From Gemmatimonadaceae bacterium (lineage in GTDB: Bacteria > Gemmatimonadota > Gemmatimonadetes > Gemmatimonadales > Gemmatimonadaceae), in contig JACVCD010000002.1 in NCBI GenBank assembly GCA_016742275.1, positions 1-64,000 on the forward strand: a DNA stretch of 64,000 nucleotides. Direction: 5' to 3'. The notes under the pieces were generated by a model that did no database searches, was not told the origin of the DNA, and saw nothing but the letters and a program-made list of their open reading frames with translations. Position numbers and translations under genes: made by a program. Positions 4,875 through 58,225 of the stretch are shown here, piece after piece; positions within the stretch are counted from its first letter, which is position 1; each line of letters opens with the position of its first letter.

Positions 4875-4890
4875 TAGCTGGATCGGAGGT

Positions 4891-5057
4891 GTTCGAGGAT
4901 CCGAGGAACAGATGGCGTGAGGATTTGAGGATCTGAGAATTTGAGGTGAAGGAAAGGGGCGGGGATGCGATCAACGCATCCCCGCCCCTTTCCTTCGTCT
5001 CAGATCCTCAAATCCTCAGATCCTCGCGCCTTCTGTTGCTCAGATTCTCAGTTGCCT
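4891..5057. repeat. Long palindromic repeat, copy 1 (susD/tkt junction)
   Basis: An imperfect inverted repeat of about 165 bases fills the space between the convergent susD and transketolase genes and runs into the last codons of tkt. Three layers are visible: outer arms around aacagatggcgtgagga and its complement, middle arms at 4919-4937 and 4999-5017 that pair perfectly over 19 bp, and a perfect 22-bp core (4948-4969 with 4975-4996). A second element at 13442-13591 shares the outer and middle arms but has an unrelated core, so this is a dispersed repeat family rather than a one-off terminator. Confidence 0.85.
4948..4996. terminator. Perfect 22-bp stem, probable bidirectional terminator
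   Basis: The core of the palindrome is a 22-bp perfect stem with a 5-base loop (4970-4974) between two convergent genes. The arms carry purine runs on one side and pyrimidine runs on the other, so each strand ends the stem in a short pyrimidine stretch. There is no classical U-tract. It should fold strongly in either transcript; the terminator role is an inference from its position. Confidence 0.6.
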
Positions 5058-7093
5058 CGGATCCGGACAGCGGCATCCGCCACCTTCTCCGCCGTAATCC
5101 CGTACTTCTCGTAGAGAACCTGGGCCGGAGCACTCGCACCAAATGTTTCGATACCGACCACGGCACCGGTGTCACCAACCCAACGATACCAGCTCATGGG
5201 GTGCGCGGCTTCGACGGCGACACGCGGAACACCGGCAGGGAGTACGTGATTGCGATACTCGATCGGCTGCTGGGAGAAGATCTCGAGACTTGTGCAGCTC
5301 ACCACGCGCGCATGAATGCCACGGCCTGACAGCTGTTCACGGGCCTTGAGTGCGATCTCGACTTCGGAGCCGCTTGCGAGCAGCACGACGTTGGGAACAT
5401 GGCCCGCAGCATCGGCCACGATGTATGCGCCCTGCTTCACGCCTTCACGTGCACGCGCGGGCTCACCCATGTACGACAGCTTCTGACGCGTCAGCACGAT
5501 CGCCGATGGGCCCGAGCGATGATGCAGCGCGGTGCGCCAGGCTTCGCTCACTTCATCGGCATCAGCCGGGCGCAACACGAGCAGATTGGGAATGCAACGC
5601 AGCGCGGTGAGATGTTCAACCGGCTGGTGCGTCGGGCCATCTTCACCAAGACCGATGGAGTCGTGCGTGAACACGTAGATGGCCTGCACACCCATGAGGG
5701 CCGCCAAACGAATGGCTGGACGCATGTAGTCGCTAAACACGAGGAACGTGCCGCCATAGGGAATAACCCCGCCGTGCAGTCCCATGCCATTCATGATTGC
5801 GCCCATGGCGTGCTCACGAATGCCGAAGTGGAAGTTGCGACCTTCGGGCGTGGCGGCGTTGAACGCGGTCGCACCCTTCACATTGGTGAGATTGGAACCG
5901 GTAAGGTCCGCACTGCCACCAATGAGTTCGGGAATCGACGGAGCGATGGCGTTAATGACCGTGCCGCTCGCGGCGCGGCTGGCCACATTACCGCTCTTGG
6001 CATCGAATGCCGGGAACGATGCATCGAGCGTGGCCGGCAATTCACCGCGCATACGACGCTCGAATTCTGCGGCCAACTCGGGGAACGCTGCACGATAGGC
6101 GTCAAACCTTGCGGTCCATTCGCCATGCGATGCCGCGCGCTGCGCGACACGCTCACGCCAATGTGCTGCCGCCGTCTCCGGCACGAAGAACGGCTCGGTG
6201 CCGGGCCAGTTGTAGGCCTGCTTCGTGAGCGAGATTTCGTCCTTGCCGAGCGGTTCGCCGTGCGCCTTGGCCGTGTCCTGACGATTCGGCGAACCAAAGC
6301 CGATGTGCGTCTTGGTGATAACCAGCGTGGGGCGCTCTGTATCGGCCTTGGCTGCAGCAATGGCGGCATCGATGGACGCGAGATCGTTCACATCGGCTAC
6401 ATGCAGCACCTGCCAGCCATACGCTTCGAAGCGCTTGGCGGCATCGTCACTGCATGTGAGCGCAGTGTTACCGTCGATGGTGATGCCGTTATCGTCGAAG
6501 AAGCCGATCAGCTTGCCGAGCTTCAGGTGACCCGCGTAGCTCGCCGCTTCGTGCGAGATGCCTTCCATGAGGCATCCGTCGCCAGCGACGAAGTACGTGT
6601 AGTGGTCAACGACATTGTGTCCCGGGCGATTGAACGCGGCCGCGAGATGCGCTTCAGCAACGGCAAAGCCGACCGCGTTTGCCACACCCTGACCCAACGG
6701 GCCGGTCGTCGTTTCTACACCCTTGGTGTGATGCACTTCGGGGTGACCCGGCGTGAGGCTCTCCCACTGACGGAAGTTGCGGATCTCGTCGAGCGGCAGC
6801 GGATAGCCTGAGAGATGCAGCGTGCCATACAGCAGCATGGACGCGTGACCAACCGACAATACAAAGCGGTCGCGATCCGCCCAATCGGGTGCGGTCGGAT
6901 CATGGCGCAGATGATTGGCATACAGCGCGTATGCCAACGGTGCGAGGGCCATGGGTGTGCCGGGGTGACCCGACTCGGCGGCTTGCACCGCGTCCATGGC
7001 AAGCGTGCGCACGGTGTCGATCGCGAGACGCACGGTCTCAGGGGACGCCGAGGATGTAGCGGAAGACGATGCAGCAGGTGACGCAGCGGACAC
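5048..7093 (-). CDS. tkt: Transketolase
   Basis: This 681-residue enzyme moves two-carbon ketol units between sugar phosphates in the pentose phosphate pathway (and Calvin cycle, if present), using thiamine diphosphate. Family motifs are in order: [18 protein letters not shown] near residue 40, the ThDP/Mg site [19 protein letters not shown] near 165 followed by [10 protein letters not shown], the pyrimidine domain with [17 protein letters not shown] near 415, and the C-terminal domain near 545-681. The length matches the family. The start is a GTG preceded by cggag at good spacing. The first 16 residues are a Ser/Ala-rich extension that is not conserved in the family. The 3' end overlaps the palindromic repeat. 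Confidence 0.96.
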
Positions 7094-7171
7094 GAAGCGC
7101 TCCGAAAGGTCGACAGTGAGTGGGCACGCCAGTCACCGGCGCGCCACAGCCCTGCAATCTAGCAAAAGCTG

Positions 7172-7200
7172 AAGGCCGATGCCCCTGGGGCACCGGCCTT
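7172..7200 (-). terminator. Rho-independent-like terminator after the chemotaxis receptor
   Basis: The ends of this 29-base element (aaggccg and cggcctt) pair, with a second GC-rich stem of tgccc/gggca inside. Read on the minus strand the hairpin is followed by cagcttttgct, a short T-rich run. It lies 41-69 bases beyond the stop of the receptor gene at 7241 and before the start of tkt. Confidence 0.65.
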
Positions 7201-7240
7201 CGTTCCAACCTTCGTTCCAATCACCCTAGCCCCGAACGGC

Positions 7241-9706
7241 TCAGCGCCGGCCAGGACGCCCGGCCGTGCCACGGGTGTGACGGCCGTTGGAAGATTGGGT
7301 GCCTCGGGACGTGGTCTGCACCCCGCCGTAAACATCACCGACTGTGGAACCGGGACCCTTGTTTGCGGTGCCCCGAGCCTCGAGGACGAACGCGCCAACG
7401 AGTTCACGTAACCGCTCAGCCTCAGAGGCCATCTCCTGCGCGGCTCCGGCGGCTTCCTCGCTGTTGGCGGCCGACTGCTGCGTAACGCTGTTCATCTGTT
7501 CGAGCGCGGTGGCAATCTGACGCGCACCTTCCGCCTGATCTTCGCTGGCGGTCGCGATCTGCTTGATGACTTCGTCCACGGCCGACACCTGCGACGCAAT
7601 GCGCTGCAATTCGCCCGAAACGTCGGAGGTAATGGCCACGCCGGCCTCGGTGGCTGCAACACTACCTTCGATCAGGTCGGCTGTTTGCTTGGCCGCCTGT
7701 GCCGAACGCAGTGCCAACGCACGAACCTCCTCGGCAACTACGGCGAAGCCACGACCGGCGTCTCCGGCACGCGCTGCTTCGACCGCAGCATTGAGCGCCA
7801 GCAGATTGGTCTGGAACGCGATCTCATCGATCGTGCGCACAATTTTCGCCGTGGCAGATGACGATTCCTGAATGCGACGCACGGCTTCGCTCAAACGACC
7901 CATGGCCTGAGTACCTGTATCAGCGGCACTGCGCGTCTCTTCCATCAGACGCGTGGCCGTCCGCGAGTCCTCGGCGTTGCGCTGTGTAATGCCACTGCTT
8001 TCCTGCAACGATGCGGACACCTCCTCGAGGCTCGCCGCCTGCTCGCTCGCACCAACGGCCAGGGCATCACTACCAGCAGCAATTTGCTGCGCACCAACCG
8101 ACACGCGGGTGCTGGCGTGATTCACTTCGCGGAGCGCGCTGGAGAGTGCTTCGGCCGCGCTGTTCACCGCGTGCTGAATGCGCGCGTGATCACCCTGATA
8201 CGCACCAGTCACGCGAGCCGTCAGATCGCGGTCAGCCAGCTGTTCGAGTGATTCGATGGCCACGCGCACGGGCTGCGTGGTGGCATCGAGTGTGTCGTTG
8301 ATACCTTGCACCAGTGACGCGTACGCACCTTGAAAGCGTGAGGCATCACCACGGGCCGCCAGATCGCCGGCACGCGCCGCCTCGATCAGCTGACCGGTTT
8401 CGGACACGAGTGCACGCACGGTATCGCGCAACGAAGTCATGGACTGACCCAACTGATCGGCGTCGCTGCGCACAGTGACCGCCACGTCGGCATCACCGGC
8501 TGCGAGGCGCTGCGATGCCGTGGCCAATTCCTGCTGCGCGACCACGATTTGCTGCACAGCTGCCGTCACGCGACCCACTTCGTCTTCACTGATCGCAGGC
8601 AGTGCGACCTGCGTATCACCGCGCGCCACTTGTTCGGCAATACCGGCCAGCGTGCCGAGCGGCTTGGCGATGTTGTTCACCGCACGAAGGATCATGAAGC
8701 CAACGAGCAGCAGTGTGCCGAGGCCAAGTGCAATGGCAAATGCCTGCAGCTGACGGACCGGTGCGAGTACCGTGGAGCGTGGCACATGGATCTCAAGCGC
8801 CCACGGGCGGTCAGAGCCACGCGCATGAACAGGCACGCGCACGATGAGCTCACCGTTGTTGTCGGGGAAGACCAGCGCTTCACCCTTCGCGATGTCGCTG
8901 ACGAGCGCAGGCAGCGCCGTGCTATCCACCGCCGACTTGCCAAGGCGCGCCGTGTCCGACGTGGCCGCAAACACACCGTTCGGTGCAATCAGCGATGCAC
9001 GCGCCGTTTCATACGGACGAATACGATGAACGCGCGCCTGAATGTCGGTCAACTGAAGATCTGCGCCAACCGCGCCAACAAAACGATCGCCGGCGATCAT
9101 GGGCGCCGAGAGCGTCACCAGCAATACGCTCTTGCCGTTGATGGAATAGGCGTACGGATCGGTGATGAAGGCTATGCGTTCATCACGTGGCTTGTGGTAG
9201 AACGGACCGTCGGTCGGATCAGAACCGCCGTCGTAGATGTCGGCCTTCTCCAGACCATTCGATCCACGAATCCAGTAGGGAGCGAACCATCCGTTGGGGC
9301 CGTGATAGGCCTGGCCGGCATACTTCACATCCGCACCGTCGAACGCGTTGGGTTCGAACACCACCCAGCTGCCAAACTGCTCCGGTTGCGCATCGAGTCC
9401 GGCGCGCACCAGCGAGTCCGCGAATGTACGTGTGAGCTTGTTCTGCGCGCTCACATTCGTGGCGAAGTTCGCAGCCACGGCTCGTGCACCTGCGAGAATG
9501 GCGGAGAATTCTCCACCGACTTCGTTGGCATGACTTTGCGCCGATGCCTTGACCGACTGAATGGCTTCGGCTTCCGCAGTACGAGCCGCCTGCCATGAGA
9601 TGAGTGTTACGAGGGCACAAAGCCCAACCAGCACACTACCACCGATAGACCGCAGCAGGCGCGGACCAATGCCGCGACCACGAAACAACGAACGCTGAAC
9701 GGACAT
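7241..9706 (-). CDS. Methyl-accepting chemotaxis protein with periplasmic dCache-type sensor
   Basis: This 821-residue transmembrane receptor probably senses a small ligand in the periplasm and controls the CheA kinase. A first membrane segment lies at about 22-40, followed by a large periplasmic region (45-325) with dCache-like features ([37 protein letters not shown]). The second membrane segment is at about 331-352, then a HAMP domain (353-405), a further HAMP-like helical stretch, and a signalling domain whose hairpin tip is [20 protein letters not shown], with [17 protein letters not shown] after it. The C-terminal tail is basic and Gly/Ser-rich and lacks the NWETF-type CheR/CheB tether. 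No other che genes are in the window. Ligand unknown. Confidence 0.93.
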
Positions 9707-13419: not shown

Positions 13420-13441
13420 TGGGCGGATCAGAGGGAGGGGA

Positions 13442-13591
13442 GGATCGGAGCAACAGATGGCGTGAGGATGGGAGGATCTGAGGATATGAGGTGCGGGCCC
13501 CGGGGGTACCCGGTGGGGCAGGGTATCCCCGGGGCCCGCTCTCTCATCCTCAAATCCTCTTATCCTCGCGCCATCTGTTCCTCACATCCTC
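13442..13591. repeat. Long palindromic repeat, copy 2
   Basis: An imperfect palindrome of about 150 bases lies between two divergent genes. The core arms (13493-13511 and 13521-13539) pair over 19 bp with one mismatch. The outer arms (from cagatggcgtgaggat on the left, ending gccatctg on the right) pair over about 37 bp with a few mismatches and are nearly the same as those of the 4891-5057 element. Because both flanking genes start here, this copy cannot serve mainly as a terminator. Confidence 0.85.
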
Positions 13592-13628
13592 GTATCTTTG
13601 CAGGATGACAACGAACCGGCGAGGGGGC

Positions 13629-51814: not shown

Positions 51815-52012
51815 TCAGCGCTCCTGTCGGGTACGGGGAGTGACAACGACGTCCTCCTCGAATGGCAATCGGGCTGCCGCGTCGAGTTCACCGCGACGCG
51901 ACGGCAGAAACGTGTAGATCGACACGGCGATGAACACGCCGAGGAAGATCACGAGCGCGATCTCGGTGTAGGACGAGAGCTGCGCGTACGACATGATGTC
52001 GGAGAGTTTCAT
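51815..52012 (-). CDS. ccoQ: cbb3 oxidase subunit CcoQ
   Basis: This 65-residue protein has one membrane helix (about 18-38, EIALVIFLGVFIAVSIYTF) and ends in a charged tail with LPFEEDVV, like CcoQ. The ATG shares one base with the TGA stop of ccoNO (TGATG). Confidence 0.88.
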   Translation of the reverse strand: MKLSDIMSYAQLSSYTEIALVIFLGVFIAVSIYTFLPSRRGELDAAARLPFEEDVVVTPRTRQER

Positions 52013-54258
52013 CAGTGCGATCCTCCCGTTGCGCCTGAAGCAGAGGCGGCACTGCTGACCTTGATGTCGCGTCCAAGGCGCTGCATGTAGGCCACCATGG
52101 CCACGATCTGTTTGTCATCGAGACCGGCCGGACCACCCTGCTCCACGATAGACGCGGCAATTTGTTTGGCCTGTTCGCGTGCCATGGCCGGTGCTCTGTT
52201 GAGCGCGTCACCGTACGGCACACCCACCATGGCCATGGCATCGATACGCGCCTGAATACCGTCGAAGTCGAGCTGCTTGGTGAGGAAGTGCGCATAGGCC
52301 GGCATGATGGACTTGGCCGTGACCGCGCGCGGATCTTCGAAGTGGCGCACATGCCAGAGATCCGGATACTTGCCACCCTCACGCGCGAGATCAGGACCGA
52401 TACGACGCGAGCCCCAGAGGAACGGATGCTCGTACACACTCTCGCCGGGCTTGGAGTACTCGCCGAATCGCTCGGTCTCGTAGCGGAAAGGACGTACCAT
52501 CTGCGAGTGGCAATTGAAGCAGCCTTCAGCGATGTAGATGTCGCGGCCTGCCAGTTCGAGCGGCGTGTACGGCTTGACGCTCGCGATGGTCGGCACGTTC
52601 GACTTGATGAGGAACGTGGGCAGGATCTCGAACAGTGAGGCGATGATAACAGCCACGGTGGTGAGTACCGTGAACAGCATCGGTGCACGTTCCCACGCGC
52701 GGTGCCACTGTGCTTGACTGAAACGGCCCCACGGTGTCGACGCCGGTACTACCGGATGCTCTTCGACATACCTGGGTGCGAGCGGCGCCGCTTCTACCAC
52801 GGGCACTTCGTAGCGCGCTGGGCGCTTCTGCCACGTCTTGAGGATGTTCCAACCGAAGATCACCATGCCGGCGATGTACATCGTGCCGCCAAACACGCGC
52901 ATCCAGTACATCGGGATGAGCTTGAGCACGGTCTCCACGAAATCGGGATACGCGAGACGTCCTGTTTCGTCGAATGCACGCCACATGAGACCCTGCGTGA
53001 CACCGGCGCTATAGATGGCCACCACATAGAGCACGATGCCGACCGACGCGACCCAGAAATGCAGCTCCATCGCGCGCTTGCTGTAGATCTCCGTCTGGAA
53101 GAGACGCGGCAGCAGCCAGTACACCATGCCGAACGTCATGAAGCCGTTCCATCCGAGCGCACCCGTGTGCACGTGTGCGATGATCCAGTCGGTGTAGTGC
53201 GACAGCGCATTGACGCTCTTGATGGAGAGCATCGGCCCTTCAAACGTGGCCATGCCGTAAGCGGTCACGGCAACGACGAAGAACTTGAGAATGGGATCCT
53301 GCGCCACCTTGTGCCATGCACCGCGCAGCGTGAGGAGGCCATTGATCATGCCACCCCAGCTCGGTGCCCAAAGCATCACCGAGAACAGCATGCCCACCGT
53401 ACTCGCCCATTCGGGCAGCGCGGTGTAGTGCAGATGGTGCGGGCCGGCCCAGATGTACATGAACACCAGCGACCAGAAGTGCAGGATGGACAGCTTGTAG
53501 CTGAACACTGGCCCTTCCGCAGCCTTCGGCATGAAGTAGTACATCAGGCCGAGGAACGGCGTGGTGAGGAAGAACGCCACGGCGTTGTGTCCGTACCACC
53601 ACTGCATGAACGCATCCTGCACACCGGCATAGATGCTGTAGCTCTTGAACAGCCCCGCAGGTACCGAGAGGTTGTTGAATATGTGCAGAATCGCGACCGT
53701 CACGATGGACGCGATGTAGAACCAGATCGCTACATAGATGTGGCGTTCACGACGCTTGATCAGCGTCATGAAGAAGTTCACGGCAAAGCCCACCCACACG
53801 ACGGCGATGGCGATATCGATCGGCCATTCGAGTTCCGCGTATTCCTTGGCCTGCGTAAAGCCAAAAGGCAGCGTGAGCGCAGCGGCCACGATGATGGCCT
53901 GCCAGCCCCAGAAGTGAAAATTGCTCAGACCATCGGACCACATGCGGGTCTTGAGCAGTCGCTGCGTGGAGTAGTAGGCGCCGGTAAAGAATGCGTTACC
54001 GGCAAACGCAAAGATCACCGCGTTCGTGTGCAACGGGCGCAGGCGACCAAACGAGAGATACTCGTTGTTGAAATTGAAGATTGGGTTCGCGAGCTGCAGT
54101 GCGATCAACAACCCGGCCAGCATGCCCACGATGCCCCAAATGAGCGTCGCGAACAGAAATTTGCGGACGACCGCATCGTCGTAGGAAAACCGATCGAGCG
54201 CGGTGTCTGGCACACGGGACACCGCAGAAATGGCTGCAGCGCTGGTGGCGGAGGACAT
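52012..54258 (-). CDS. ccoNO: cbb3 oxidase fused subunits I and II (CcoNO)
   Basis: This 748-residue protein joins CcoN and CcoO in one chain. Residues 20-475 hold the 12-helix heme-copper catalytic core, with the CcoN-type RLRPLHTNAVIFAFAGNAF near 72, WYGHNAVAFFLTTPFLGLMY, WAGPHHLHYTALPEWAST and DWIIAHVHTGALGWNG. The CcoO part (about 520-748) has one membrane helix and a heme site CFNCHSQMVRPF near 578. It reduces O2 to water with high affinity and pumps protons. Such fusions are known in Bacteroidota and other groups. A gaggg six bases before ATG 54258 supports the start. It is the first gene of the operon. Confidence 0.95.
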   Translation of the reverse strand: MSSATSAAAISAVSRVPDTALDRFSYDDAVVRKFLFATLIWGIVGMLAGLLIALQLANPIFNFNNEYLSFGRLRPLHTNAVIFAFAGNAFFTGAYYSTQRLLKTRMWSDGLSNFHFWGWQAIIVAAALTLPFGFTQAKEYAELEWPIDIAIAVVWVGFAVNFFMTLIKRRERHIYVAIWFYIASIVTVAILHIFNNLSVPAGLFKSYSIYAGVQDAFMQWWYGHNAVAFFLTTPFLGLMYYFMPKAAEGPVFSYKLSILHFWSLVFMYIWAGPHHLHYTALPEWASTVGMLFSVMLWAPSWGGMINGLLTLRGAWHKVAQDPILKFFVVAVTAYGMATFEGPMLSIKSVNALSHYTDWIIAHVHTGALGWNGFMTFGMVYWLLPRLFQTEIYSKRAMELHFWVASVGIVLYVVAIYSAGVTQGLMWRAFDETGRLAYPDFVETVLKLIPMYWMRVFGGTMYIAGMVIFGWNILKTWQKRPARYEVPVVEAAPLAPRYVEEHPVVPASTPWGRFSQAQWHRAWERAPMLFTVLTTVAVIIASLFEILPTFLIKSNVPTIASVKPYTPLELAGRDIYIAEGCFNCHSQMVRPFRYETERFGEYSKPGESVYEHPFLWGSRRIGPDLAREGGKYPDLWHVRHFEDPRAVTAKSIMPAYAHFLTKQLDFDGIQARIDAMAMVGVPYGDALNRAPAMAREQAKQIAASIVEQGGPAGLDDKQIVAMVAYMQRLGRDIKVSSAASASGATGGSH

Positions 54259-54471
54259 CGATTACCCTCGTGGGTGTGGGAATTCGTGGCAGTGATCGAG
54301 AGTCTAGGCTCCAGCTGCCCTTCGCTCCGTCAGGCGGTGGCCTCAATTGCGTCGGGGAAAACCCGATGGGCACATGGGAATGCGATTTCGCAGCATGGTT
54401 TGCGTATCAACCCGTGCATTTCGACTCATTCGAACTACAAATCGCCCCTTGAGGGGGTGTATCCTTCCCGC
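54259..54471. other. Divergent promoter region of ccoNO and nitroreductase genes
   Basis: This 213-base gap must hold the promoter of the cbb3 operon. I searched for a TTGAT-N4-ATCAA Fnr/Anr box and found none; the nearest partial match is tttgcgtatcaa near 54402. A short inverted repeat (tcggg/cccga around 54350) is present. No other features were seen. Confidence 0.45.
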
Positions 54472-55035
54472 ATGACTGCTCTCAACGAAATTCTGACTTC
54501 ACGTCACTCGATTCGCCGTTTCACCGACCGCGCACCGACGCGCGAAGAACTCGAACAGTTGTTCGATGCCGCGGTGTTGGCGCCCAATCACCGTCTCACC
54601 AATCCCTGGCGCTTCTATGTCCTGGGTCCCGAAGGTCGCGCGGCCTATGGATTGGCGCTTGGCAATCGCAAGGCCAAGAAGGCCACCGACGAGGCGCAGG
54701 CCGAGGAGATGCGGAAGACCACGAGTGATCAGCATCGCGCGTGGCCCTGCATGGTTCTCGTCGCGATGACGCAGAACGAGAATCTCGAAATCCGCGAGGA
54801 AGACTACGCGGCGACCATGATGGCGACGCAGAATCTTTGCCTCAAGGCCGTGGAGCTTGGGCTTGGCACACACATTCGCAGCGGTGCCATCATGGGCGAT
54901 CCGGCCGCGCGCGCCGCGGGTGGTGTGGCCGAGAACGAGCGCATTGTCGCCGTACTGACCATTGGTACGCCGGCCGAAGTGCCGGAAGCCAAGCCGCGCA
55001 CACCGGCCCGCGAACTCACGCACTGGATTCCTTAA
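54472..55035 (+). CDS. Nitroreductase family protein
   Basis: This 187-residue FMN-dependent oxidoreductase has the family start RHSIRRFTDRAPTREELEQL, with SIRRF binding the FMN phosphate, and AAVLAPNHRLTNPWRFYVL. The middle has YAATMMATQNLCLKAVELGLG. The short C-terminus ends PARELTHWIP. A longer frame back to 52702 only shadows ccoNO. The last 34 bases belong to a 116-bp direct repeat whose second copy repeats the final ten codons (PARELTHWVP) at 56194. Substrate unknown; such enzymes reduce nitroaromatics, quinones or flavins. Confidence 0.88.
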   Translation: MTALNEILTSRHSIRRFTDRAPTREELEQLFDAAVLAPNHRLTNPWRFYVLGPEGRAAYGLALGNRKAKKATDEAQAEEMRKTTSDQHRAWPCMVLVAMTQNENLEIREEDYAATMMATQNLCLKAVELGLGTHIRSGAIMGDPAARAAGGVAENERIVAVLTIGTPAEVPEAKPRTPARELTHWIP

Positions 55036-55117
55036 TCAAGGACTGATCGGGCACCCTAAGTTCGCGGACCGCCCGAGTTTGACTACGTCACGCGGCTCAC
55101 TTTGCCGCGTGGTGTAG
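55002..55117. repeat. 116-bp direct repeat, copy 1
   Basis: This copy contains the last codons of the nitroreductase gene, a 60-base hairpin (55008-55067), and on the minus strand a fossil chemotaxis-receptor end reading ATPRGKVSRVT-stop. It aligns without gaps to 56194-56309 with about 84 percent identity by eye. Between the copies lies the propeller lipoprotein gene. Confidence 0.88.
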
Positions 55118-55205
55118 CTCTTGCAGCGAATGGCAATACAGGCTCCTTGAAGAGTGGCTTCTCGCGTCTCGCTCATTTGTGATTCAACCTACAGCTGAGA
55201 GAATG

Positions 55206-56192
55206 ATGCACAAACGAATATCGCTCACCGCGGTCGTACTGGCATTTATTGCTTCTGGCTGTGATGAAAGTTCGCCGGATTCAGTGTCTCATGCAATCGA
55301 TCTTCCCTTACATGAGCAGCGGGTCGTCTCGTTTCAGCGAGAGCCAAACGTCGCATACTTCGACGATGTGGTATTCGTGGATGACAAGATGCTTGTGGTG
55401 GAATCAACCACTGCTTCCGTTTCCGCATTCAATGTTTCAGATGGCCGCAGAGCGTGGACGGTCGGTCGTAAGGGTGCTGGACCAGGGGAATACCTCGAGC
55501 CGCGATTCTTTGTCGCGCGTCCCGACGCCACGGTCGGCGTGATCGACGTACGCCAAGGTCGCATTACGGTGCTGAACCCAAGCGATGGATCGGTCAAAGA
55601 AGTAGTGTCTGGAGAGAGAGTGACTGGAGACCTGAACAATGTTTGCGGTAGAATCGATGGCAGCTTTCTAGCGATCAAGATGCCGCAGTTCGACGTGGTC
55701 CGGATTGACGAAAGGCCAGAAAGCACACCGCTCTTCCGCATTCAGTGGCCTGTAGAAACGTACAATCAATCTCCAATGCTACAGCAAGGACTGTTCGCAA
55801 GGTCTCGCGATGGACGCTGCGTGGTGTTTCAACCCCGGGGTGATTTCTTCTACGAAGTGGACGGCGATAGTTTGCCGCGCAACAAGTTTCATAGATACGC
55901 AATCGCATATCCGCCCCAACAAATTGATCGGAGTCAGCGAACTCCTCGCGCGATACCCGGGGGAGGCGCTGCGCAGTATGCAGCGCTTAAGGGAGATACC
56001 CTATTTGTATTGAGAGGGGGGCCAAGTAAGAATGACCTTGGAAAGGTCGACCTATACCTCTTGGCAAGCGGCGCAAGGATTGGAACACTGCTGCTTCCGA
56101 GCGAAACATACATTTTCGATGTCAAAGGGTCTTCCATCGTTACACTTGTGAACACAGACGAGGGTTCTGTTCTCACGTTGTACCAGCGATAG
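55206..56192 (+). CDS. Beta-propeller-like exported lipoprotein (6-bladed type)
   Basis: This 328-residue lipoprotein has the signal MHKRISLTAVVLAFIASGC (Cys19). The mature part shows repeated short blades such as VVFVDDKMLVVESTTASVSAFN, FFVARPDATVGVIDVRQGRIT and KGDTLFVLRGGPSKNDLGKVDL, a 6-bladed-propeller pattern common in Gemmatimonadota. Function is unknown. Its base composition is clearly more AT-rich than the neighbours, with codons such as aca, ata and tta used freely, and its stop codon lies one base before repeat copy 2. Start: ATG 55206 has gagag just upstream, while ATG 55203 is also possible. Confidence 0.75.
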   Translation: MHKRISLTAVVLAFIASGCDESSPDSVSHAIDLPLHEQRVVSFQREPNVAYFDDVVFVDDKMLVVESTTASVSAFNVSDGRRAWTVGRKGAGPGEYLEPRFFVARPDATVGVIDVRQGRITVLNPSDGSVKEVVSGERVTGDLNNVCGRIDGSFLAIKMPQFDVVRIDERPESTPLFRIQWPVETYNQSPMLQQGLFARSRDGRCVVFQPRGDFFYEVDGDSLPRNKFHRYAIAYPPQQIDRSQRTPRAIPGGGAAQYAALKGDTLFVLRGGPSKNDLGKVDLYLLASGARIGTLLLPSETYIFDVKGSSIVTLVNTDEGSVLTLYQR

Positions 56193-56193
56193 A

Positions 56194-56309
56194 ACCGGCC
56201 CGCGAACTCACGCACTGGGTGCCCTGATCAAAGATTGATCGGGCACCTTGAGTTCGCGGACCGCCCGAGTTTGACTACGCCACGCGGCGCAACGACCCGC
56301 GTGGCGTAG
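56194..56309. repeat. 116-bp direct repeat, copy 2
   Basis: This copy begins one base after the stop of the propeller gene. It carries a fossil nitroreductase end (PARELTHWVP then TGA), the 60-base hairpin at 56200-56259, and the genuine last codons of the chemotaxis receptor gene on the minus strand. It matches 55002-55117. Confidence 0.88.
56200..56259. terminator. Nested 60-base hairpin, probable bidirectional terminator
   Basis: The outer arms ccgcgaactca and tgagttcgcgg pair perfectly over 11 bp and the inner arms ggtgccctgatcaa and ttgatcgggcacc pair with one bulged base. The hairpin lies between convergent genes, and its homologue at 55008-55067 is less well paired. Confidence 0.65.
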
Positions 56310-58038
56310 TGTCCCCCTCCGAGCCCACCTGAAAGCGTGCGCTCTGATCACGCAGATTCTGCGCCTGCGCCGTGAGCTCCTGTGCTGCACCGGCCGATTC
56401 CTCGGCGCTCGCTGCGGCCTGTTGCACGGCACCGTTCAGTGCCACGATCGCATCACGCATCTGATTCATGCCCTGCTGCTGTGACTCAGCAGCGTGACCG
56501 ATCTGGTTCATGACGCCTTGCACAGAGGCAATGCGTGTCTTGACCTCCTGCCACTGCGTGCCGACATCGGCCGAGATATTCACGCCGCCTTCAACACGAT
56601 GTACGGCCTGCTCAATGAGCTCCGAGGTCGTGCGCGCCGCTTCTGCGCATCGCATGGCCAGCGCACGCACTTCATCAGCCACGACGGCGAATCCACGACC
56701 GGCGTCGCCGGCACGGGCTGCTTCGACTGACGCATTGAGGGCCAGCAGGTTGGTCTGAAATGCGATTTCGTCGATGGTGCGTACGATGCGCGCAGTTTCG
56801 TTGGCAGCCTGCCGGGTTGCAGCCATGGCTTCCTCGAGACGCGCCATGTGCGACACACCGCGATCCACAGCGCCCGATGCATCGACGGTAGCCTGGCGCG
56901 CGTCGCTTACGGCTCGCACCGTCTGCGCACCCAATAGCGTCATCTCGCCAATATTGGCACTGATCTGCTCAAGCGCTGCTGCCTGCTGACCCGTCAAACG
57001 GGCGAGCGTGTCCGAGCCATGTGCCACGTCGCTGGCTGCTGCATCGATCTGGGCTGACGCCACCCGCAGCTCACCCAACGCATGGCGCATGCTGCCAAGC
57101 GCATGATCAAGATCGGATGCTGTGAGCGCGTAGGCCTCGGCGAATTCACTGCCAACGGACTGCGTGAGATCACCCTGACGCATGGCCGCGATAACGGGTG
57201 TCAGCGCATCGAGGAAGTGCGTAGTCGCGCGCTGCGCAGCTTCGTTGCGGAGACGCAGTGTCTCCACGGTGCGTGCACCTTCAACCAGACGATCCGACAC
57301 AGAGCGGAATGCGCCGTGCAATGTGTGCTGATCGTTTACTTGCATGACACGTCGTTCTGCCAGCGCCCGTCCCAGCTCTACGGCGTGCGCGTCGAGTGTT
57401 TCGACTGCATCAATCACCGTGCGCACGGCGGCGGCAACGCCTTCTCCAGACGGAATGACATCTAGTCGACCTTCACCGACGGCCTCGAGCGACTCGAACA
57501 CCTGCTGCGTTGTGCGTGCTTCGGATTCGAGATTGCGCGCGAGGAATACCAGTACTGCCGTCTCGAACACCACGAACAGCGCATGCACGATCACAATAGC
57601 GTGACCACCGGCCGTGTGATTGAGCAAAAAGACGGGACCACCGGCCACCTGAATGAAGTGAAACGCCACGTGATGCACGGCAATGAAAGCCGCCGCCGCA
57701 ACCGGCACGCGCCAGTCCCGATAGGCCAGGAGAAATGCCAGCGAAGCAAAGACGTGGAAATGCAGTTCGACCATGCCGTGCGCGAGATGAATGAACAGCG
57801 CGGAGAACGACATGAATGCGATGCCAAGCAGGAATCGCGTGGCGGCGGCACCGGCGTGCGTCCGGGAAAAGGCAAACGCGCCGAGCGACAGCGGCACACC
57901 AACCAGCAGCGCGCTGGTCCACATGCCGTGCAACGATGCGAGAAACAGCGTGACCGGCAAATGGGCGAGTAGGACAAGGCCAAGCAATCTGTCCGCGTCA
58001 CGTCGGCTGCGGCCCAACACGGTCGAACGGTCAGTCAT
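56275..58038 (-). CDS. Methyl-accepting chemotaxis protein with six-helix, His-rich membrane sensor
   Basis: This 587-residue receptor has six membrane helices in its first 170 residues instead of a periplasmic domain. These helices hold many histidines (H84, H87, H93, H95, H122, H123, H127, H141, H146, H152), with HLAHGMVELHFHVF and AVHHVAFHF, a pattern that could bind heme or copper. A HAMP-like linker region follows, then a signalling domain with hairpin tip [20 protein letters not shown]. The C-terminus ends TPRGSLRRVA. The nearby cbb3 operon makes oxygen or redox sensing an attractive idea. No che genes are adjacent. The 3' end lies in the direct repeat. Confidence 0.9.
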   Translation of the reverse strand: MTDRSTVLGRSRRDADRLLGLVLLAHLPVTLFLASLHGMWTSALLVGVPLSLGAFAFSRTHAGAAATRFLLGIAFMSFSALFIHLAHGMVELHFHVFASLAFLLAYRDWRVPVAAAAFIAVHHVAFHFIQVAGGPVFLLNHTAGGHAIVIVHALFVVFETAVLVFLARNLESEARTTQQVFESLEAVGEGRLDVIPSGEGVAAAVRTVIDAVETLDAHAVELGRALAERRVMQVNDQHTLHGAFRSVSDRLVEGARTVETLRLRNEAAQRATTHFLDALTPVIAAMRQGDLTQSVGSEFAEAYALTASDLDHALGSMRHALGELRVASAQIDAAASDVAHGSDTLARLTGQQAAALEQISANIGEMTLLGAQTVRAVSDARQATVDASGAVDRGVSHMARLEEAMAATRQAANETARIVRTIDEIAFQTNLLALNASVEAARAGDAGRGFAVVADEVRALAMRCAEAARTTSELIEQAVHRVEGGVNISADVGTQWQEVKTRIASVQGVMNQIGHAAESQQQGMNQMRDAIVALNGAVQQAAASAEESAGAAQELTAQAQNLRDQSARFQVGSEGDTTPRGSLRRVA

Positions 58039-58225
58039 GGATCGAATACGAGATCAGGGGCACGTGCGCCCGTGTTTCGGAGCGGTATCGCCGGATGGCG
58101 GATACACGGGGCCGCCAAAATGCGACGGTCCCGTTCAGGAATATCGTCCGCCCAGTGGATCTCCTTGAGCCGTCCAAGTGTTCTATGTCGTTGCTGTACA
58201 AGCATTTCGCATTCAGGAAGGAGAA

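Follow-up and report, generated by a model that had tools for sequence, protein, structure and literature searches.

Islands and ICEs that insert at the 3' ends of tRNA and tmRNA genes duplicate the 3' end of the conserved gene. When no integrase or transposase is involved, the settlement of single genes in bacterial chromosomes goes mostly unseen. In Escherichia coli, linear DNA that enters the cell is believed to undergo trimming and recircularisation before a single crossover integrates it, and the duplications so produced measure 109-950 bp (PMC3240628). In the minimal mobile elements of Neisseria, whole genes vary between two conserved genes without any mobility genes; they are incorporated solely via homologous recombination, and a duplicated terminator is not part of their definition (PMC3898611). 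Here we describe a locus in a 64,000-nt stretch of a Gemmatimonadaceae genome (the window), where one lipoprotein gene (lip) is enclosed by two copies of the terminator block shared by a nitroreductase gene (NR) and a convergent chemotaxis receptor gene (MCP). Insertion with duplication of the terminator very probably explains this arrangement. A sequence-only reading of the window had proposed an insertion; the idea is right in outline, although several of the arguments offered for it fail, and the phenomenon extends beyond the lip locus.

The repeat pair and the inserted gene

The two copies of the block, R1 (55002..55117) and R2 (56194..56309), form a direct repeat of 116 bp with a spacing of 1192. 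The positions given in the sequence-only reading hold, and the similarity is kept on alignment (100/116 identical, ungapped). Because the 4.57-Mb host genome contains no copy of the repeat other than these two (G000; E 3e-55 and 1.5e-33, the third-best match being 18 bp and at chance level) and no counterpart in the 148 family genomes searched, the similarity of R1 and R2 is far beyond chance. Each copy consists of an NR end, a nested hairpin and an MCP end, and the live and fossil ends are distributed as originally described. R1 holds the last 34 nt of NR with its live end (PARELTHWIP-stop), a nested hairpin at 55004-55071 and a second hairpin at 55083-55117, which is the fossil MCP end and is still in frame. 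R2 has the corresponding ten codons as PARELTHWVP-stop with the NR gene absent upstream, a nested hairpin at 56196-56263 and a second hairpin at 56275-56309, which is the live MCP end (TPRGSLRRVA-stop, 35 nt, minus strand). Both copies fold into the nested and the second hairpin, R1 with -50.1 kcal/mol (z -4.3 vs shuffles) and R2, well above R1 in stability, with -71.6 kcal/mol (z -8.3). R2 is likely the terminator of both lip and MCP. An Rfam scan of 54200-58200 gave no match.

The 16 differences between R1 and R2 show moderate clustering (permutation p 0.018), with uninterrupted identity over 29, 25 and 12 nt, and most of them fall in hairpin arms and loops. The left 34 nt of the repeat, i.e., the NR end, differ from the NR end of a relative (G012) at 3 positions in R2 and at 7 in R1; the gene ends with TGG GTG CCC TGA in G012 and in the R2 fossil, and with TGG ATT CCT TAA in the live R1 end. 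The live NR end is thus the derived copy and the R2 fossil the ancestral-like one, because it is the fossil that matches the G012 ending. A divergence of 16 percent had been taken to argue for import from a relative. The measured value is 14%, and since the differences are clustered and the live end is derived, the divergence cannot serve as a clean clock, nor does it alone require DNA from a foreign donor.

The unique insert between the copies (55118..56193, plus strand) holds a single gene, lip (55203..56192, plus strand); nothing else lies between the repeats, as noted earlier, and no integrase is seen beside lip in the reading-frame list. The gene encodes a 329-aa six-bladed propeller lipoprotein (DUF5128) with the lipobox IASGC, and its stop codon is 1 nt short of R2. 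The match to Pfam DUF5128 is weak (31.3 bits, cut-off 22.9) and covers residues 52-122 only. Homologues of lip were found in just 5 further of 179 family genomes (G008, G014, G015, G025, and G018), at other loci. The insert has a GC content of 0.528 vs 0.619 for the window, and GC3 is 0.539 in lip vs 0.718 in NR. The lower GC of the insert was therefore noted correctly, but it is no proof of recent import: all four homologues examined (G008, G014, G015, and G025) are also GC-poorer than their surroundings, and in these relatives low GC thus characterises the lip family as such. A phage source was rejected, as lip was absent from viral contigs. We found no source copy of lip inside the host genome and no repeats of the R kind around the homologues in relatives.

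The same four homologues are flanked by a gene for a secreted Cys-rich peptide and a gene for a thioredoxin-like lipoprotein. This conserved three-gene module (Cys-rich peptide with CxxTCxPMPxxC, propeller lipoprotein, and thioredoxin-like lipoprotein; L101 8700-10500, L102, L103, and L104) may be a system for peptide maturation or sensing that has not been described before. With the G008 protein as query, in a search run without a positive control, the thioredoxin-like partner had no match in the whole host genome.

The ccoNO-MCP junction in related genomes

The left conserved flank of the locus is a ccoNO fusion gene (cytochrome cbb3 oxidase; 52012..54258, minus strand), followed by NR (54472..55035, plus strand; 187 aa, PF00881, E 1e-25); on the right lies MCP, encoding a methyl-accepting chemotaxis protein (56275..58038, minus strand; PF00015, G006 orthologue 79-80%). 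In eight genus members (G006, G008, G003, G019, G025, G026, G002, and G011) orthologues of ccoNO, 87-93% identical, directly adjoin MCP without NR or lip, and so does the wider ccoGPNO cluster. Where NR is present in relatives it occupies other places; in G012 it lies behind a GNAT gene, a few kilobases off. Because ccoNO and MCP are direct neighbours in eight relatives, NR and lip are both additions here, first NR and then lip. The NR-MCP junction, which the sequence-only reading took as the ancestral site, thus itself arose by an addition. MCP DNA can be aligned with G006 and G008 until ~16 codons before the stop, whereas the tail, including its part of the repeat, cannot; the arrival of NR may therefore have involved a rebuilding of this tail.

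The search recommended earlier, for an empty NR-receptor junction with one repeat, gave none among 30 genomes of the genus and 148 of the family (queries NR+R1 and R2). Since the other genomes searched lack the NR-MCP junction, we infer rather than observe the exact state before lip entered. An arrangement common to all relatives, which had been named as speaking against insertion, was not seen either: no relative has lip at the ccoNO-MCP junction. In G012 (L026 10998-12701) the ccoNO-MCP space holds a propeller gene of the DUF5128 family next to one of thiol type, in opposite orientation and without flanking repeats.

The two fossil ends could also be explained together by a longer segmental duplication of NR through MCP, from which the inner gene bodies were deleted and lip substituted. 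Such a history requires several coincident deletions that end exactly at hairpin edges, and the second case described below is a 60-bp duplication without a larger fossil. We consider it very improbable.

A second terminator duplication at ffs-dnaX

A 1.65-Mb part of the host genome (36%) was read and scanned for hairpin-rich close direct repeats. The suggestion that other cargo genes might lie between duplicated 3' ends was borne out by one more case, at the SRP RNA gene (ffs, matching Rfam RF00169). Two copies of the 60-bp ffs terminator (G000:C7 157581-157640 and 158104-158163), 90% identical, enclose a 463-bp insert that carries an orphan ORF of 133 aa upstream of dnaX. The sister genomes G006 and G008 both have ffs, one terminator and dnaX, i.e., an empty site. 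The host stretches C7 7491-7640 and 8104-9977 (numbered from C7:150001) correspond to the overlapping G006 stretches 6182-6332 and 6272-8179; both host terminator copies map to the one G006 terminator, and the flanks are collinear. Because G006 and G008 keep the single-terminator empty site, the comparison of empty and filled sites is complete, and it demonstrates insertion with terminator duplication at ffs-dnaX.

In both cases a resident segment is directly duplicated on the two sides of the insert, the cargo and the upstream gene point the same way, and no more than 0-1 nt separates the stop codon of the cargo from the second copy. Hairpins in the host genome usually begin 10-45 nt past the stop codon. 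With n=2, the meeting of both edges with a stop codon is suggestive only. G003 and G019 carry other genes at the ffs-dnaX junction, convergent to ffs and without duplication, which fits the idea that only co-directional cargo requires a second terminator. The gene content of this junction varies between Gemmatimonas species, with genes convergent to ffs (L223, L226, L207, L224, L225, and L229).

The 1.65 Mb contained two duplicated terminator pairs with cargo, and duplicated terminators without cargo (tandem, spacing 35-400) were not found there. These counts bear on a two-step history, in which the terminator block was duplicated in tandem and the gene then entered between the copies. The genus does offer an example of tandem expansion at the 3' end of NR, in G021 (7 copies of a 188-bp unit); the two-step history predicts more empty than filled pairs, however, and is disfavoured because the sample has 0 empty and 2 filled, which makes it improbable in our judgement. 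The seven tandem hairpin units of G021 (L034 5965-7293) lie directly behind NR, and the unit has one copy in G004 and G027 and a partial one in G026. As a candidate third case this repeat was rejected, since it is a tandem array without cargo.

The remaining close repeats in the sample were attC-type arrays, dispersed giant hairpins or paralogous coding sequence. The giant hairpins are terminator-like, 140-190 bp long (AGATGGCGTGAGGAT...), and were seen at 4880-5064 and 13425-13592 of the window (C4 4880 and 13425) and at C4 93026, 95986, 97801, and 226661. Two of them start exactly at a stop codon. All six copies on C4 were rejected as local duplications of one site, as they form a dispersed family; the first samples from C12, C13, and C7 contained none. 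Separately, G000:C12 62272-63374 carries a 554-bp tandem duplication, 99.8% identical, across a gene start.

A chromosomal integron is present at G000:C4 120940-126411 (L164, L165), with an integrase (PF00589 and PF13495) and attC-type sites close to it; on another contig, at G000:C13 240169-244405 (L245), six attC-type sites and their cassettes form an array of their own. NR-R1 and lip-R2 might accordingly be viewed as cassettes of an integron or of a hairpin-recognising recombinase: the order is gene-site-gene-site, the stop codon abuts the site, and the host has a true integron integrase (C4 120940) and attC-type arrays (C4 124.9-125.8 kb and C13 240-244 kb). All of the paired attC-type sites found in the host (8/8), however, start with TAACG and end with CGTTA; R1 and R2 have neither core sequence and were rejected as integron attC sites on that ground (the strict RYYYAAC/GTTRRRY pattern was no guide, since the host's real attC-type sites escaped it as well). 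The repeat forms two hairpins rather than one, its left third is ordinary NR coding sequence common with G012, and the ffs case duplicates a different sequence, which argues against a shared site. Cassette behaviour is thus very improbable here. The proposal that cargo genes are added at a shared terminator stands insofar as addition recurs in two cases, but there is no common site, each case duplicating its own local terminator.

Possible routes of insertion

In the mechanism that we propose, a single gene was inserted at the terminator block common to NR and MCP and the block was duplicated in the process, so that the newcomer is flanked by two terminators: copy A still ends NR, and copy B ends lip and MCP. 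The incoming DNA would join the chromosome once inside the terminator block, by a homologous joint, and the second joint would be illegitimate, directly behind the stop codon of the cargo. This could happen either by a single crossover of a partly degraded, recircularised fragment or by homology-facilitated illegitimate recombination of a linear fragment, and the product would be retained by selection, neither neighbour having lost its terminator. One or the other of these is the molecular route that we tentatively favour. A ComEC homologue is present in the host genome; ComEC-type proteins are also found in control genomes of bacteria not known to be competent, and its presence is no proof of competence.

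The single homologous crossover suggested in the sequence-only reading could account for the addition of lip and has a laboratory parallel for the duplications (PMC3240628), but it does not suffice. A crossover donor must already pair the gene with the terminator, and therefore one illegitimate joint is still needed for the origin: crossover can spread the R-lip-R arrangement, while creating it needs that joint. A donor carrying the same block beside the gene was found in none of the family genomes searched, nor was a circular form. The shortness of the anchors (60 and 116 bp) counts against a crossover route, and the coincidence of duplication edges with hairpin edges is not predicted by random degradation or crossover.

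The edges are better explained by template switching triggered by the hairpin, in which the fork stalls, the nascent end copies a gene elsewhere, returns upstream and recopies the hairpin block, leaving copies that are initially identical. The duplication edges coincide with the edges of hairpins or T-runs, the stability of R2 is extreme (z -8.3), and the differences between the copies lie mostly in arms and loops. In hairpin 1, the right arm comes close to the NR end in inverted form, the pattern that foldback copying would leave. A candidate microhomology is ACCGGC: the G008 homologue of lip is followed by ATGACCGGC, and R2 begins with ACCGGCC. Templated insertions from template switching are usually short, and this process does not predict an intact gene of 1 kb that breaks off precisely at the stop codon, nor was the source of lip found within the host genome. 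Overall we regard template switching as doubtful.

The evidence base comprises two cases in one genome, one of them with a clean empty site, and points to recurrent, integrase-free addition of single genes. A stronger version, in which Gemmatimonas has a recurrent and possibly enzyme-assisted insertion of single genes at strong hairpin terminators that duplicates the whole block, strikes us as quite improbable. If such a process were true, it would be akin to CRISPR adaptation: there the repeat is duplicated around a new spacer, here the terminator would be duplicated around a ready-insulated gene. The signature can be searched for in any genome set as a duplicated terminator around one gene whose stop abuts the second copy. 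That both neighbours keep a terminator is a possible reason why some insertions are tolerated.

Comparison with known systems

The locus shares with integron cassettes genes in a row, each directly followed by a hairpin repeat; it differs in that attC cores are missing, there are two hairpins, the site varies by case, and part of it is NR coding sequence. Compared with islands and ICEs at tRNA or tmRNA genes, the insert here has no integrase and consists of one small gene only. As in minimal mobile elements, the ccoNO-MCP and ffs-dnaX junctions hold differing whole genes across Gemmatimonas. In a comparison of species, not strains, ccoNO-MCP contains NR and lip here, a propeller and thiol-type pair in G012, and is empty in eight; ffs-dnaX, compared likewise, contains the orphan in the host, is occupied by different genes in G003 and G019, and is empty in G006 and G008. 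Integration of recircularised DNA by a single crossover and homology-facilitated illegitimate recombination (PMC3240628) have in common with the proposed mechanism one homologous and one illegitimate joint and the lack of an integrase. The duplications of 109-950 bp in E. coli flank foreign DNA, whereas here a terminator block of 60-116 bp flanks a single intact gene.
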